A stretch of 50,006 bases of DNA. Origin: Actinomycetes bacterium. Lineage in GTDB: Bacteria > Actinomycetota > Acidimicrobiia > Acidimicrobiales > SZUA-35. Of the stretch, positions 36,156 through 41,140 are shown piece by piece. The DNA lies in contig JAJRXF010000032.1 in assembly GCA_024276425.1 (NCBI GenBank), positions 1 to 50,006 on the forward strand. The letters are read 5' to 3'. The position numbers and the translations under genes were made by a program. How positions within the stretch are numbered: position 1 is the first letter of the stretch; each line of letters begins with the position of its first letter. The notes beneath the pieces are model-generated. The model ran no database searches. It was given only the letters and a program-made list of their open reading frames with translations, and was not told the DNA's origin.

Positions 36156-36630
36156 TCAGCGTGGGGGCAACAAGCCGAGGTCAAGAAGGAGCCGTTCGGC
36201 AAAGGGGTGTAGGTCGATAGTTTCGAGTTCTGCGACCTGATACCAAGCGACCGCTGTTGTTTCATCGTTGTCGGGGCGAGGATCCCCTGGAGCGATCTCG
36301 GCCCGATACACGATGGTGACAGGTGACATAGGCCGTGACATCGCCGTTGGGCTACCTCACCTGGTATCCCTCGCCACCGAACGCCCCGACCAATTCGGTC
36401 AGGACGACTTCAATTCCAGCCTCTTCCAGCGACTCCCGTCTGGCCGACACCTCGGGTGACTCCCCTGGTTCAATTGCTCCGCCGATTGTGCCCCACTGAC
36501 CAAAATCCGACTGGCGGACCAGAAGGATGCGATGATCGCTATCGGTAACAAGAACCGATACCGAAGGAAGCAGAATCAGATCATGTCCGACCCGATCCCT
36601 GATCCCTTTAACAAACGATGACATCCCCAT
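36156..36630 (-). pseudogene. NUDIX hydrolase with nonsense codon and 7-bp duplication
   Basis: The first part (start ATG 36630 or 36624) has SVSVLVTDSDHRILLVRQS and a complete Nudix box, GGAIEPGESPEVSARRESLEEAGIEV read as GGxxEPGEx...RExxEEAG. After GEGYQVR the frame meets TAG (36352-36354), and the same frame continues PNGDVTAYVT before losing phase. Homologues read Y-PNGD here, so TAC or TAT to TAG is likely. Phase is lost at a perfect 7-bp tandem duplication (36315-36328); deleting one copy restores YVTIVYRAEIAPGDPRPDNDE and the normal C-terminus. Two independent lesions make this a true pseudogene. Confidence 0.85.
36315..36328 (-). repeat. 7-bp tandem duplication causing a frameshift
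   Basis: GGTGACAGGTGACA is two perfect copies of 7 bp. Removing one joins the two NUDIX reading frames exactly. Confidence 0.8.
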
Positions 36631-38783
36631 TGGCCGAGAACATAAACCAGCCGATCTCGATTCGAGGTGCTTGCCATCACGACTGTCCCGATACCTGCGT
36701 CTGGGATGTCACCATCTCCGACGGGGTTGCCATCAGACTGCTGGGAAACAAGGATCACCCGACGACCCGTGGGCAACTGTGCCCCAAGGTCAACCGGTTC
36801 CTTCAGCGGGTCTATCACACGGATCGATTGAGTTCACCGCTACGCCGTACCGGACCGAAGGGCAGCGGGGAGTTTACGGAAATCACCTGGGAGGAAGCGC
36901 TCGCCGAGATCGCCACACGACTTGAGTCAATCGTTCGCTCGAAGGGCGCCGAGGCCATTCTCCAGTTCTCCTTCGACGGCACTCAGGGCATGATCCAGAA
37001 AGGGGTAATGGCTGACCGGTTCTTCGACCGGCTCGGTGCCAGCGATATTCGCCGACACCTGTGCGGAGTGTCGGCCTGGCTCGGTGCCGCCGATGTCACC
37101 GGGCACCCCTTCGGTATGAATCCCGAGGATCTCGCCCTGTCCCAGACCATCATCTTGTGGGGTACCAACACCCGGCTCACCAACCGACACCTGTGGCCGA
37201 CCATCGAAGCAGCAAAGGCCAATGGTGCCACGCTCATCGTGATCGATCCTGTTCGAACCGCAACCGCAGCCGCTCCCGAAGTCGATCACTTCTTACAGGT
37301 CCGGCCCGGAACCGACGTGGCCTTGGTCTTAGCCATGATCAACACTATGGCCGCTGAGGACTTGCTGGACCAGGATTGGATCGAACAGAACACAACCGAT
37401 TCGGAGGAGCTCTTTTCCGATGCCAAGCGGATGCCGCCGGAACACGCGGCAGCGATAACGGGTATCGACGCGGACACAATTCGTTGGTTGGCCAGAACCT
37501 ACGCTACCAAAACCCCAGCGGCCATTCGAGTCCTGGTCGGGCCGTAGCACCGCCAACATGGTCAAGACATCATGCGAGCCGTTGCCATACTTCCAGCCGT
37601 GACCGGGGCATGGCGTGAGGTCGGAGGTGGCCTCGCTCGATCAACCCAAGTCTACTTCGAACGAGCGCTCTCCCTCGACACTGTGCTCTCCCTCGACACT
37701 GTGCCCGCCCTCAACACAGCGCCCGCCCATGGTCCAGAAACGCCGCGCCGCAAGTTCAATATGGCTGCCCTTGGGTCGGTTCTTTGCGATGAGGCTTTGC
37801 AGCCACAAATCGAAGCCTTGGTGGTTCACAACTCCAATCCGGCCTCGATCTGCCCCGATCAGAACGCCGTTATCCGAGGACTGGAACGAGACGATCTGTT
37901 CTGCGTAGTGATCGAGCAGTTCATGACTGACACTGCTCGCTACGCTGACATCGTCCTGCCTGCAACCACCCAGCTCGAACACCTTGAGTTGATGCCTGCG
38001 TGGGGCCACCTCTACCTCGCGCTCAACAAACCAGCCATCAGCCCGGTTGGACAAGCCCTACCGAATACCGAGATCTTTCGTCGTCTGGCCAAGGCGATGG
38101 GCTTGGATGAGCCGATGTTCTCCGACTCTGACGAGGACCTTGTACGCCAACTCCTCGATTCCGATCACCCCTGGCTGGGCGATATCGACTTCGAACTTCT
38201 TGACCGCGATGGTTGGGCCAGGCTCGATGTTCCCGACTCCTACCGGCCCAACATCGACGACGGGCCGGAGACTATCGGCGGCCGGTTCAGACTCGGTTCG
38301 CTTCGCTACCGGGCAGGGGCCGAAACGGCCGAAGCTAACCCGGCCCTTGCGGCCAAATATCCCCTCAACCTGATCTCCCGCAAGCAGCACCTCAAGTTCC
38401 TCAACACCAACTATGGGGCCTTCCCCGAACACCAGCCGTCAGCCCTAGCGCCTCAACTCGAGATCCACCCCATCGACGCAGCAGCCCGCGGCCTGAAAGA
38501 GGGCGACACCATTGAGGTGTACAACCAGCGTGGCTCACTCAGTGTTGGGCTAACCATCAGCGAAGACGTCCAGCCGGGGATGGTCGCCTTGCCCTTCGGT
38601 TGGTGGAACCGCAGCACCCCAGAGGGTCGGAGCGTCAATGCACTGACCAACCCACAGGTCGATGCCACTAGGGAAACCGAACCCGGGTTCGATCGCGGCT
38701 CAGGAAACCCAGTGAACTACGACGTCCCGGGTTCTGCCGCCTTCCACGAGACCCTGGTCCAGGTGCGCGCCGCCACCGCCTAG
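36618..38783 (+). pseudogene. molybdopterin oxidoreductase interrupted by in-frame TAG
   Basis: A DMSO-reductase-family enzyme of about 720 codons. The Fe-S motif CHHDCPDTC...LCPKV near residues 18-50 should bind [4Fe-4S]; then come LQFSFDGTQG, ILWGTNTRLTNRH, VIDPVRTATAA (molybdopterin binding), DIVLPATTQLEHLE and the C-terminal MopB-C domain LEIHPIDAAARGLKEGDTIEVYNQRGS. At 37545-37547 TAG follows AAIRVLVGP, and the frame continues HRQHGQDIMRAVAILPAVTGAW without loss; homologues have a residue such as Glu there, so GAG or CAG to TAG fits. Immediately after is an in-frame 18-bp tandem repeat. Without readthrough the product would be cut at residue 309. Substrate unknown. The gene overlaps the divergent NUDIX remnant by a few nt. 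Confidence 0.85.
37668..37721 (+). repeat. 18-bp tandem repeat in the oxidoreductase gene
   Basis: CTCTCCCTCGACACTGTG occurs twice in perfect tandem (37668-37685, 37686-37703) with a decayed third copy to 37721. It is in frame and encodes Leu-Ser-Leu-Asp-Thr-Val units, an insertion into a surface loop. Confidence 0.85.
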
Positions 38784-38787
38784 CTCC

Positions 38788-38981
38788 GGCTCACACCCGT
38801 TCCCTACGCGCTCGGCGACCCCCAAAAGGGTCGCAACCGCGACAACGAACCTGGACGGGGCCACGGTCGTTCCCCACGCGCTCGGCGACCCCCAACTCAA
38901 GGCTCACACCCGTTCCCTACGCGCTCGGCGACCCCCAAAAGGGTCGCAACCGCGACAACGAACCTGGACGGGGCCACGGTC
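38788..38981. repeat. 81-bp direct repeat with competing hairpins
   Basis: An 81-bp unit occurs twice without mismatch (38788-38868, 38901-38981). The 32 bp between them start with a third partial copy of the motif GTTCC-ACGCGCTCGGCGAC. Each full unit has GCGACCC-CCAAAA-GGGTCGC (38815-38834 and 38928-38947), and GTCGC can alternatively pair with GCGAC 4 nt further on. The array fills the 196-bp convergent gap and enters the last two bases of the deaminase fusion gene. No coding signal is seen. Confidence 0.85.
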
Positions 38982-40683
38982 AACGCTTGCGGACCTCGGC
39001 CCATTGGTAGAACCAGTCACCGTCGTCTGGATGGGGCCAGGTTTCGTAGTACTCGATCTCTCCGATGTGCTCGCTCAACATCCGTTTCCATACCGGGTCA
39101 GAGCGACGACTGAAGTTGCGGTCAACATCCACCCTGCTGCTGGCCAATTGTTCGCTTTGGTCCCGGCCTCCCCAGGAGCCGATGATGGCCACTCCCCCCG
39201 GCCTCAACACCCGACCAATCTCAGCTAGTGCCTCACTAATGGCCGCGTCGGTGACATGCATCAGCACACTCATCGACCAGACGGCATCGAACGCACCATC
39301 GACAAAGGGAAGCTGGACCGTCGAGCCCGTCAATGCCGGGAAGCCAAGTCCGGCACAAGCGCGAACATTCTCTAGTGACAGATCTAGCCCAACCACCTCA
39401 TAGCCAGCATCACCGAGGGCCTTAGAGTCACGACCCGGGCCAGGGCCAAGGTCCAGCAGCCGAGCCGGTGGCCTCGGCAATACTTCGGCCAAGACGCGCT
39501 CGCGACCAGCAGCGCGTTGGCCCTCCGTGCTCAAGCTTGCCCTGCGCTCTGCTTCGGCGTCGTAGTACCGAATCAATTCCGATTCGACCTGAGTTTGAGA
39601 CTTGACAACCACGGCTGGCCCTAAGGGCTTGCCCTCCCAGCCCGCCAGCTCTTCCAGGATTCGTCGCTTCACCTCATCAGGAGCAAAGCTGGCCCCAACG
39701 GCATCCACTTGCATCGCTTGGTGGCTCGGTCGATCAAATCCAAGATGCTTGGAAGCAATGGTCAACTCGCGGAGGAGATCGGTGGCAAACCAGCCAGGGT
39801 CATCGGTGTTCACACAGACTCGGATCCCTGCCTCACGAAGGGTGGGGAGCGGATGCTTACCGATCTCATCGACGACACCGAGCAAGAGATTACTGGTCGG
39901 ACAGACCTCCAACATGATGCCTCGCTCACCAATCAAGTGAACCAAGTCCTGGTCCTCCAGACACCGAACTCCATGACCAATGCGCTCAGCCCCAAGGTCG
40001 ACAATGGCCGAGCGAACCGAATCGGCTCCTTTGGTCTCCCCTGCATGAGGGACCGAATGGAGACCAAGAGCCCTTGCTCGGCCAAAGTGTGTCGCGTAGG
40101 GAGCGGCCGGAAAGCCAACCTCGTACCCGCCAAGACCAATAGCAACCAAGCCATCCGGGGTATTCGACCCTTCCAAATACTTGATCGTAACCTCTTCGTC
40201 TGGTGTTTCGATATCTCGCGGAATATCGATGACCCAGCCCAACTCAACCCCGCGTTCTGCCGCCAGGCGCCGACCCTGGTTCAGGCCATCCCGATACTCA
40301 ATCTGGCTCATTCCCGGGCGGTCATCACGAGCTAGAAAGTGGGTGTAGGCCGTGGTGGTGACCTCGGCATAGCGAACCTGTTGGGCGGCCAGGGTTGCCC
40401 CAAGATCATCGATGATGGTGACCAGGTCATCCCCGCTCCGCAACAGGGTCAAGCCATAAAAGAACTGGGTGGCAAAGTGGGGGAAACCGTCGAAGGAGAA
40501 GGCCTGGGGAAAGCCGTTCGGCCAGACCGGTGACGGATCGACGTCATGGCGCTCGGTCAGAGCACGGACGGTGTCTACCGACATCGAACCTTCCAAATGA
40601 AGATGCAACTCAACCTTAGGGAGGCGTTCGAGCCAGCCTGCCAACCCATCATCGGGTTTTGTCCGTCCTGCAACCTCGTACAT
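38980..40683 (-). CDS. adenosine deaminase - SAM methyltransferase fusion
   Basis: Residues 1 to about 350 are an adenosine deaminase: LPKVELHLHLEG (zinc His27 and His29), GLGGYE, VPHAGE (His213, Glu216), RIGHGVR (His237), EVCPTSN and VNTDDPGWF (zinc and catalytic Asp). After a helical linker with ELIRYYDAEAERRAS, residues about 395-567 are a class I methyltransferase with motif I LLDLGPGPGRDS, acidic loop VGLDLS, AVWSMSVLMHVTD and RVLRPGG. The deaminase turns adenosine into inosine; the methyltransferase uses SAM and releases SAH. Whether they act on one modified nucleoside, or the deaminase helps clear SAH-derived adenosine, is open. Both halves keep their key residues. Start ATG 40683 lies inside a 15-bp tandem duplication that doubles the GAGGG ribosome site. 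Confidence 0.88.
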   Translation of the reverse strand: MYEVAGRTKPDDGLAGWLERLPKVELHLHLEGSMSVDTVRALTERHDVDPSPVWPNGFPQAFSFDGFPHFATQFFYGLTLLRSGDDLVTIIDDLGATLAAQQVRYAEVTTTAYTHFLARDDRPGMSQIEYRDGLNQGRRLAAERGVELGWVIDIPRDIETPDEEVTIKYLEGSNTPDGLVAIGLGGYEVGFPAAPYATHFGRARALGLHSVPHAGETKGADSVRSAIVDLGAERIGHGVRCLEDQDLVHLIGERGIMLEVCPTSNLLLGVVDEIGKHPLPTLREAGIRVCVNTDDPGWFATDLLRELTIASKHLGFDRPSHQAMQVDAVGASFAPDEVKRRILEELAGWEGKPLGPAVVVKSQTQVESELIRYYDAEAERRASLSTEGQRAAGRERVLAEVLPRPPARLLDLGPGPGRDSKALGDAGYEVVGLDLSLENVRACAGLGFPALTGSTVQLPFVDGAFDAVWSMSVLMHVTDAAISEALAEIGRVLRPGGVAIIGSWGGRDQSEQLASSRVDVDRNFSRRSDPVWKRMLSEHIGEIEYYETWPHPDDGDWFYQWAEVRKR

Positions 40684-40712
40684 CTGCCCTCAACCCCTCT
40701 GCCCTCAACCCC
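40683..40712 (-). repeat. 15-bp tandem duplication over the fusion gene's start
   Basis: TCTGCCCTCAACCCC is repeated perfectly (40683-40697, 40698-40712). On the minus strand each copy carries a GAGGG, so the ribosome site before ATG 40683 is duplicated. Confidence 0.85.
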
Positions 40713-40777
40713 AGGGAAACCTCGTTTGGTTTGTGCACAATAGGCCAGCGCAGATGTCTTTCTGCCATAGTGATCCA

Positions 40778-41140
40778 ATGGCCATTGTCGGACTCGACCA
40801 TCTGCAGATCTCCATGCCCTTGGGAGGAGAAGACCAAGCGGTTGCCTTCTATGCCGGAGTTCTTGGTCTAACCCAGGTCCCAAAGCCAGCACCCCTCAAT
40901 GAACGAGGCGGGTGTTGGTTCGAAGAAGGCTCAGTCCACATCCACCTCGGAGGTGAAGAGAACTTCCGTCCAGCCCGTAAAGCCCACCCGGCCCTCTTGG
41001 TGTCCGATCTTGATGAGCTGAAGGCGAAGCTCGCGACCGCCGGGTATGAGGTTAGGCCGGGAGCTATCGTCAAGGGCATCTCCCAATGGTTCACCAATGA
41101 TCCCTTCGGCAATCGGATCGAACTTATCGCGGCCACCTGA
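40778..41140 (+). CDS. VOC-family protein
   Basis: A 120-residue protein from ATG 40778: IVGLDHLQISMPLGGEDQAVAFYAGVLGL, GGCWFEEGSVHIHLGGEENF, ALLVSDLDELKAKLATAGYEV and WFTNDPFGNRIELIA, with His and Glu ligands (DHLQ, HIHL, RIEL) typical of a glyoxalase/bleomycin-resistance fold. The frame is open 15 codons further up but the family start is here. Reaction unknown. Divergent from the deaminase fusion. Confidence 0.83.
   Translation: MAIVGLDHLQISMPLGGEDQAVAFYAGVLGLTQVPKPAPLNERGGCWFEEGSVHIHLGGEENFRPARKAHPALLVSDLDELKAKLATAGYEVRPGAIVKGISQWFTNDPFGNRIELIAAT

Follow-up and report, generated by a model that had tools for sequence, protein, structure and literature searches.

The window, i.e., the whole stretch of 50,006 nucleotides that was analysed, contains an uninterrupted ATG-to-stop reading frame of 567 codons that occupies exactly 38980-40683 on the minus strand (for an overview of the features see Table 1). 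The plus strand of the same interval is interrupted by stops in the one frame read. Pfam assigned residues 22-347 of the product to A_deaminase (237 bits, cut-off 27, E 3.8e-70) and residues 410-501 to Methyltransf_11 (68.2 bits, cut-off 21.2, E 1e-18), and with these E values both halves of the frame are far beyond chance. An earlier sequence-only reading had proposed that two intact domains are fused here in a single 567-aa frame, and this is confirmed by the reading frame together with the Pfam matches. The His, Glu and Asp residues which that reading had recognised as the zinc and catalytic set of adenosine deaminase (ADA) are all present, and the methyltransferase motifs DLGPGPGRDS and VGLDLS could be read in the translation as claimed.

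Table 1. Coordinates of the fused reading frame, its parts and the divergent neighbouring gene in the window.
Feature	Position	Strand	Remarks
Fused reading frame	38980..40683	-	ATG 40683-40681, stop TGA 38982-38980
A_deaminase domain (residues 22-347)	39643..40620	-	divergent adenosine-deaminase-family amidohydrolase, HLHLEGS type
Six junction residues (352-357)	39613..39630	-	gap between the aligned C-terminus of the G001 deaminase and the aligned initiator Met of the G001 methyltransferase
GTG codon, residue 358	39610..39612	-	aligned to the ATG start of the G001 methyltransferase; putative internal start
Class I SAM-dependent methyltransferase half (residues 358-567)	38983..39612	-	Methyltransf_11 core 410-501 = 39456-39181
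Glyoxalase-family gene	40733..41140	+	divergent; also divergent beside the deaminase in G001; synteny marker

The surroundings of the frame display several irregularities of their own. An exact 15-bp tandem duplication is located at 40683-40712, immediately upstream of the start codon. At the 3' end, positions 38788-38981 hold two exact 81-bp direct repeats with a 28-bp partial copy between them; this repeat has 11 more partial matches in its own genome and none in the same-genus relative described below. The adjacent frame at 36618-38783 (plus strand, 721 codons) resembles molybdopterin oxidoreductases and carries a single in-frame TAG at 37545-37547, either a nonsense change or a sequencing error; both of its parts match the same Pfam family.

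Family assignment of the two halves

The deaminase half passed the NCBIfam model TIGR01430 with 230.7 bits against a cut-off of 216.55. Residues H27, H29, H213, E216, H237, D294 and D295, whose catalytic and zinc-binding roles we take to be those of their counterparts in mouse and human ADA, were invariant in 16/16 aligned sequences, the window being counted among them. Score and catalytic residues together place this half, as a predicted member, in the adenosine deaminase family (PF00962/TIGR01430). None of the canonical adenosine deaminase equivalogs (PRK09358.x) was reached among the matches listed, and the window deaminase stayed well under the cut-off even of the nearest subfamily model, NF006854 (PRK09358.3-1), with 292.5 of 530 bits.

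The motif HLHLEGS places a glutamate, E31, after the HxH pair. In the printed alignments the chains 3rys and 3ou8 also carry E at this position, whereas the adenosine deaminases 6n9m and 6n91 carry D. In a Foldseek search with the structure model, 3rys, 6n9m and 3ou8 were the first fold matches of the deaminase, with 3rys ranked first. By their titles, 3rys is an adenine deaminase and 3ou8 an adenosine deaminase; the latter is presumably PA0148, which is reportedly active on adenine. However, both of these chains carry SDDPAYFGGY, whereas GLGGYE and TDDPGWF are found in the window. The window protein, as seen in the printed alignments, accordingly shares E31 with the adenine deaminase type (AAur1117, PA0148) and has TDDPGWFATD in place of SDDPAYFGGY, so that it does not conform to this type as we defined it from a reading of two chains (Glu after HxH plus SDDPAYFGGY). 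As the pocket motifs otherwise appear to fit neither type, naming adenine or adenosine as the substrate is an informed guess only.

A search with PADLOC gave CARF5--CARF_ADA with 117.3 bits over the deaminase half, with no CARF domain found in the protein by Pfam; in the methyltransferase half it reported mad2 with 46.2 bits, and RdrB scored 12 bits. A role in a defence system was considered and set aside on the lack of a CARF domain by Pfam and on the seven window neighbours scanned with Pfam, which suggest no such system.

The C-terminal half is likewise assigned by prediction, here to the class I SAM methyltransferases (Methyltransf_11), by a score above the cut-off and by a glycine-rich SAM loop, three glycines of which were invariant in 9/9 alignment rows. 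Modelled alone, this half gave a mean pLDDT of 82.3 and a pTM of 0.85, and in a fold search the model matched many class I enzymes, first among them AtmM and RPA2492, which are also the nearest solved sequences (6uv6 and 3e23, respectively). RNA methyltransferases appeared lower, e.g., at ranks 21, 25 and 37 of the best 50. No methyltransferase equivalog was reached at its cut-off among the best 25 of 36 NCBIfam matches, the best being the DVU_1556 family with 52.1 of 155 bits, and no substrate can therefore be assigned to this half. In the model of the full-length protein the deaminase was confident and the methyltransferase half poor (mean pLDDT 73, pTM 0.62), the methyltransferase rows of the underlying alignment consisting of the window sequence only. 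Because this half was poorly modelled, the full-length model is uninformative on the packing of the domains.

The junction and the same-genus relative

The family search over 39 genomes included a single further genome of this genus, G001, in which the locus L035 (JAJRQY010000026.1) holds both genes intact and separate: a deaminase of 343 aa (L035:4977-6008) and a methyltransferase of 211 aa (L035:6163-6798). The two are co-oriented, stand in the same order as in the window and lie 154 bp apart; identity to the window is 76% for the deaminase and 65% for the methyltransferase. On the deaminase side, G001 retains relatives of the window's divergent glyoxalase, SDR and histidine-phosphatase-family genes and of three more genes, two of which we take to be ccm genes. 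In G001, however, an additional pentapeptide-repeat gene lies between glyoxalase and SDR. The downstream neighbours also differ, with TetR and MMPL genes in G001 and the molybdopterin oxidoreductase in the window.

Alignment of the DNA to G001 showed homology reaching both sides of the junction, with the window a net 139 bp shorter: 18 bp separate the halves in the window as compared to 157 bp in G001, i.e., the stop plus the 154-bp spacer. In the deaminase rows of the alignment the G001 deaminase ends opposite window residue 351, and the G001 methyltransferase begins, with its first Met, opposite V358, which is encoded by GTG. In the window, therefore, the deaminase has lost its stop, a GTG stands in place of the methyltransferase ATG, and six residues bridge the halves. 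The missing spacer rules out the simple loss of one stop codon. Between the window and G001, dN was 0.20 for the deaminase and 0.29 for the methyltransferase (dS was saturated at 1.9 and 3.7), values that cover the whole divergence of the two genomes and not the time since fusion; the low dN in both halves indicates constraint on each gene, not on the fusion.

The G001 spacer contains a near-perfect hairpin at L035:6048-6085 (DNA fold -22 kcal/mol, z -8.1, none of 200 shuffles as stable), of which 22 further partial matches were found at 15 places elsewhere in G001; the genome of the window has a single weak match. It looks like a member of a dispersed palindromic, REP-like repeat family. A consensus scan of L035 5990-6200 identified no promoter- or terminator-like site.

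Taken together, we consider it quite probable that the frame is a lineage-private fusion of two formerly independent, co-oriented neighbouring genes, each half of which works alone, and the best reading is that this fusion is young and species-private. The spacer would have been lost in the lineage of the window, by a deletion possibly helped by the hairpin repeat. With two genomes of the genus compared, the direction of the change, i.e., spacer loss here or gain in G001, is not formally polarised, and as the G001 spacer carries a dispersed repeat, part of the length difference may be an insertion in G001. A rival account is that the common ancestor of the genus already had the fused gene and that G001 split it by acquiring the repeat-bearing spacer, a course of events to which the recurrence of the palindromic repeat at 15 other places in G001 lends some plausibility. 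But the repeat spans only about 50 of the 154 bp, the deaminase stop of G001 sits at the usual end of deaminases in this clade, and the start of its methyltransferase agrees with those of the two stand-alone homologues compared at their N-termini (L112 and L037). Since an insertion into a fused gene would need to recreate both the deaminase stop and the methyltransferase start, an ancestral fusion strikes us as very improbable.

A further concern is that the genes abut or nearly overlap in the organism and that a one-base error near the junction, made during assembly or base calling, joined their frames. Such an artefact is countered by a clean alignment to G001 on either side of the junction, by the lack of homopolymers longer than three bases between 39660 and 39601, and by the quality stated for the genome (completeness 96.1%, contamination 0.93%). 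However, an out-of-frame TAG at 39623-39621 is located just upstream of the GTG at 39612, so that a one-base shift before this TAG would give two tightly spaced genes. In addition, the assembly consists of 203 contigs, of which the window is one, most of the named relatives are metagenome-assembled according to their titles, and the in-frame TAG of the next gene, the molybdopterin oxidoreductase, may be another error, or else a real nonsense change. Weighing these points we regard an artefact as unlikely, and even with a base error the spacer loss itself would remain. Our verdict is that two ordinary neighbours have become fused, or nearly so, in this lineage only.

Distribution of the fusion among relatives

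In 28/28 deaminase loci other than the window (identities 42-76%; L035 counted, several genomes represented twice), the deaminase is closed by a stop of its own, at a position that differs from that of the window junction by no more than about 20 residues. One stand-alone deaminase, L034:5001-6013 (= L008), is broken into two overlapping frames by a frameshift or an assembly error and was kept in the locus counts. The 34 loci with a deaminase identity of at least 57% are taken by us to represent 19 distinct genomes, namely G001 and 18 others. In none of these 18 relatives beyond the genus was a methyltransferase match detected in the 393 to 5,060 bases downstream, a stretch that is shorter than 1 kb in three of them. 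Among the loci fetched, matches at E 1e-10 were obtained at 63 for the deaminase and at 49 for the methyltransferase, the window's own L001, L057 and L058 being left out of both counts; four loci had both, and all four are the same place in G001. In a scan of contigs from named genomes, one of 34 loci, again L035, matched over both halves.

Searches with the full fused protein as query gave the same picture. Among the matches listed, the window alone gave one match across both domains in 397 genomes of the order (1/397), in 246 genomes of the phylum (1/246) and in 61 relatives, the three sets partly overlapping. As three candidates were scored per genome in the search of the order and five in that of the phylum, the latter at E <=1e-40, weakly similar fusions could escape. 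The matches in G169 (query residues 5-408) and G221 (342-567) cross the domain boundary, both with internal stops; they were rejected as fusions on closer reading, which identified a deaminase alone and a methyltransferase alone, respectively. The query matched 147 plasmid records, none of which covered 80% of it in one place. Based on these searches, the combination of deaminase and methyltransferase was not found elsewhere, and a conserved bifunctional enzyme is not indicated, the fusion occurring in one species among the genomes searched. Nor did the literature searched describe such a fusion, and nothing was found there on fusions arising by deletion, a statement that reaches as far as those searches.

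The sequence-only reading had stated that its proposal would fall if the two domains were separate genes in all close relatives and the junction had arisen by loss of a stop codon. This very nearly applies, as the domains are separate in G001, the deaminase has its own stop in 18/18 more distant genomes (at least 57% identity), and 8/8 methyltransferase homologues showed no deaminase match in the flanks fetched. It differs in that the junction reflects a missing spacer (net 139 bp) and not just the loss of one stop codon.

Is there a functional link between the two activities?

The sequence-only reading had further supposed that the two domains share a pathway, acting on a modified nucleoside or removing the adenosine derived from S-adenosylhomocysteine (SAH). 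This gained no support from the remainder of the genome, which encodes an SAH hydrolase (470.6 bits), one member of the PNP_UDP_1 family and two more A_deaminase genes, G000:C109 (L055:1465-2544) and G000:C202 (L056:1492-2997), both of the HDHLDGG type. The first of these passes the adenosine deaminase equivalog NF006847 (557.9 of 412 bits) and lies directly downstream of another open frame, which we take to be a thymidine phosphorylase; the second is narrowly under the same cut-off (403.2 of 412 bits). With an SAH hydrolase and two further ADA genes, the fused deaminase is not needed against SAH-derived adenosine, and on these genes, together with the PNP_UDP_1 member, a shared pathway via SAH was dropped as the leading idea.

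The gene neighbourhoods were also considered as evidence for a joint function and did not provide it. Outside the genus, the deaminase neighbourhoods at 16 named loci were mixed: four had a common neighbourhood of THAP4-like, thiolase, SNase and YdjC family genes, three had a common carboxyl transferase, and EAL and class-V aminotransferase genes adjoined others. For the methyltransferase, 8/8 homologues in other genomes had no deaminase match in the flanks fetched, and no common neighbours were apparent around these eight when the unannotated flanks were inspected by eye. Apart from the fact that the two genes are neighbours in the genus, we found nothing that ties one activity to the other.

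This adjacency, which is seen in 2/2 genomes of the genus, in one of them as a fusion, could nevertheless hint at a functional link, and a genuine bifunctional enzyme of one pathway might, e.g., use its deaminase to convert SAH to S-inosylhomocysteine or to remove a methylated nucleoside that the other half makes or uses. There is precedent for the former, as a different enzyme, TM0936, is reported to deaminate SAH (PMC10992897). The presence of RNA methyltransferases among the fold matches also counts in favour; these were not top-ranked, however, and the top matches AtmM and RPA2492 are not nucleoside enzymes. The retained acidic E31, whose position we take to be that of the residue meeting the ribose 5'-OH in ADA, does not suggest room for a 5'-homocysteine. 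In addition, the genome has its own SAH hydrolase, and outside the genus no match to the partner gene was obtained, either downstream of the deaminase in the 18 relatives over the stretches given above or in the flanks fetched for the eight methyltransferase homologues. We therefore hold a genuine bifunctional enzyme to be very unlikely. In our estimation it is also highly doubtful that the frame encodes a young, functional bifunctional enzyme whose divergent amino-purine deaminase would use what the attached methyltransferase releases, be it product or co-product.

Under the favoured private fusion of neighbours, the product would have two domains that act separately: an N-terminal zinc deaminase, which may hydrolyse an adenine- or adenosine-like amino-purine, and a C-terminal methyltransferase, which may use SAM to methylate an unrelated substrate. 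Some methyltransferase may also be made alone from the GTG that occupies the former start position.

As an enzyme, the fused protein is probably of little weight, as two common domains would have come together when a single lineage lost the spacer between them; its importance would be greater if the deaminase truly acts on SAH or a methylated purine. The locus neatly illustrates how a fused gene can arise when neighbouring genes lose a spacer that bears a repeat, and it cautions against inferring a shared pathway from one fused open reading frame.
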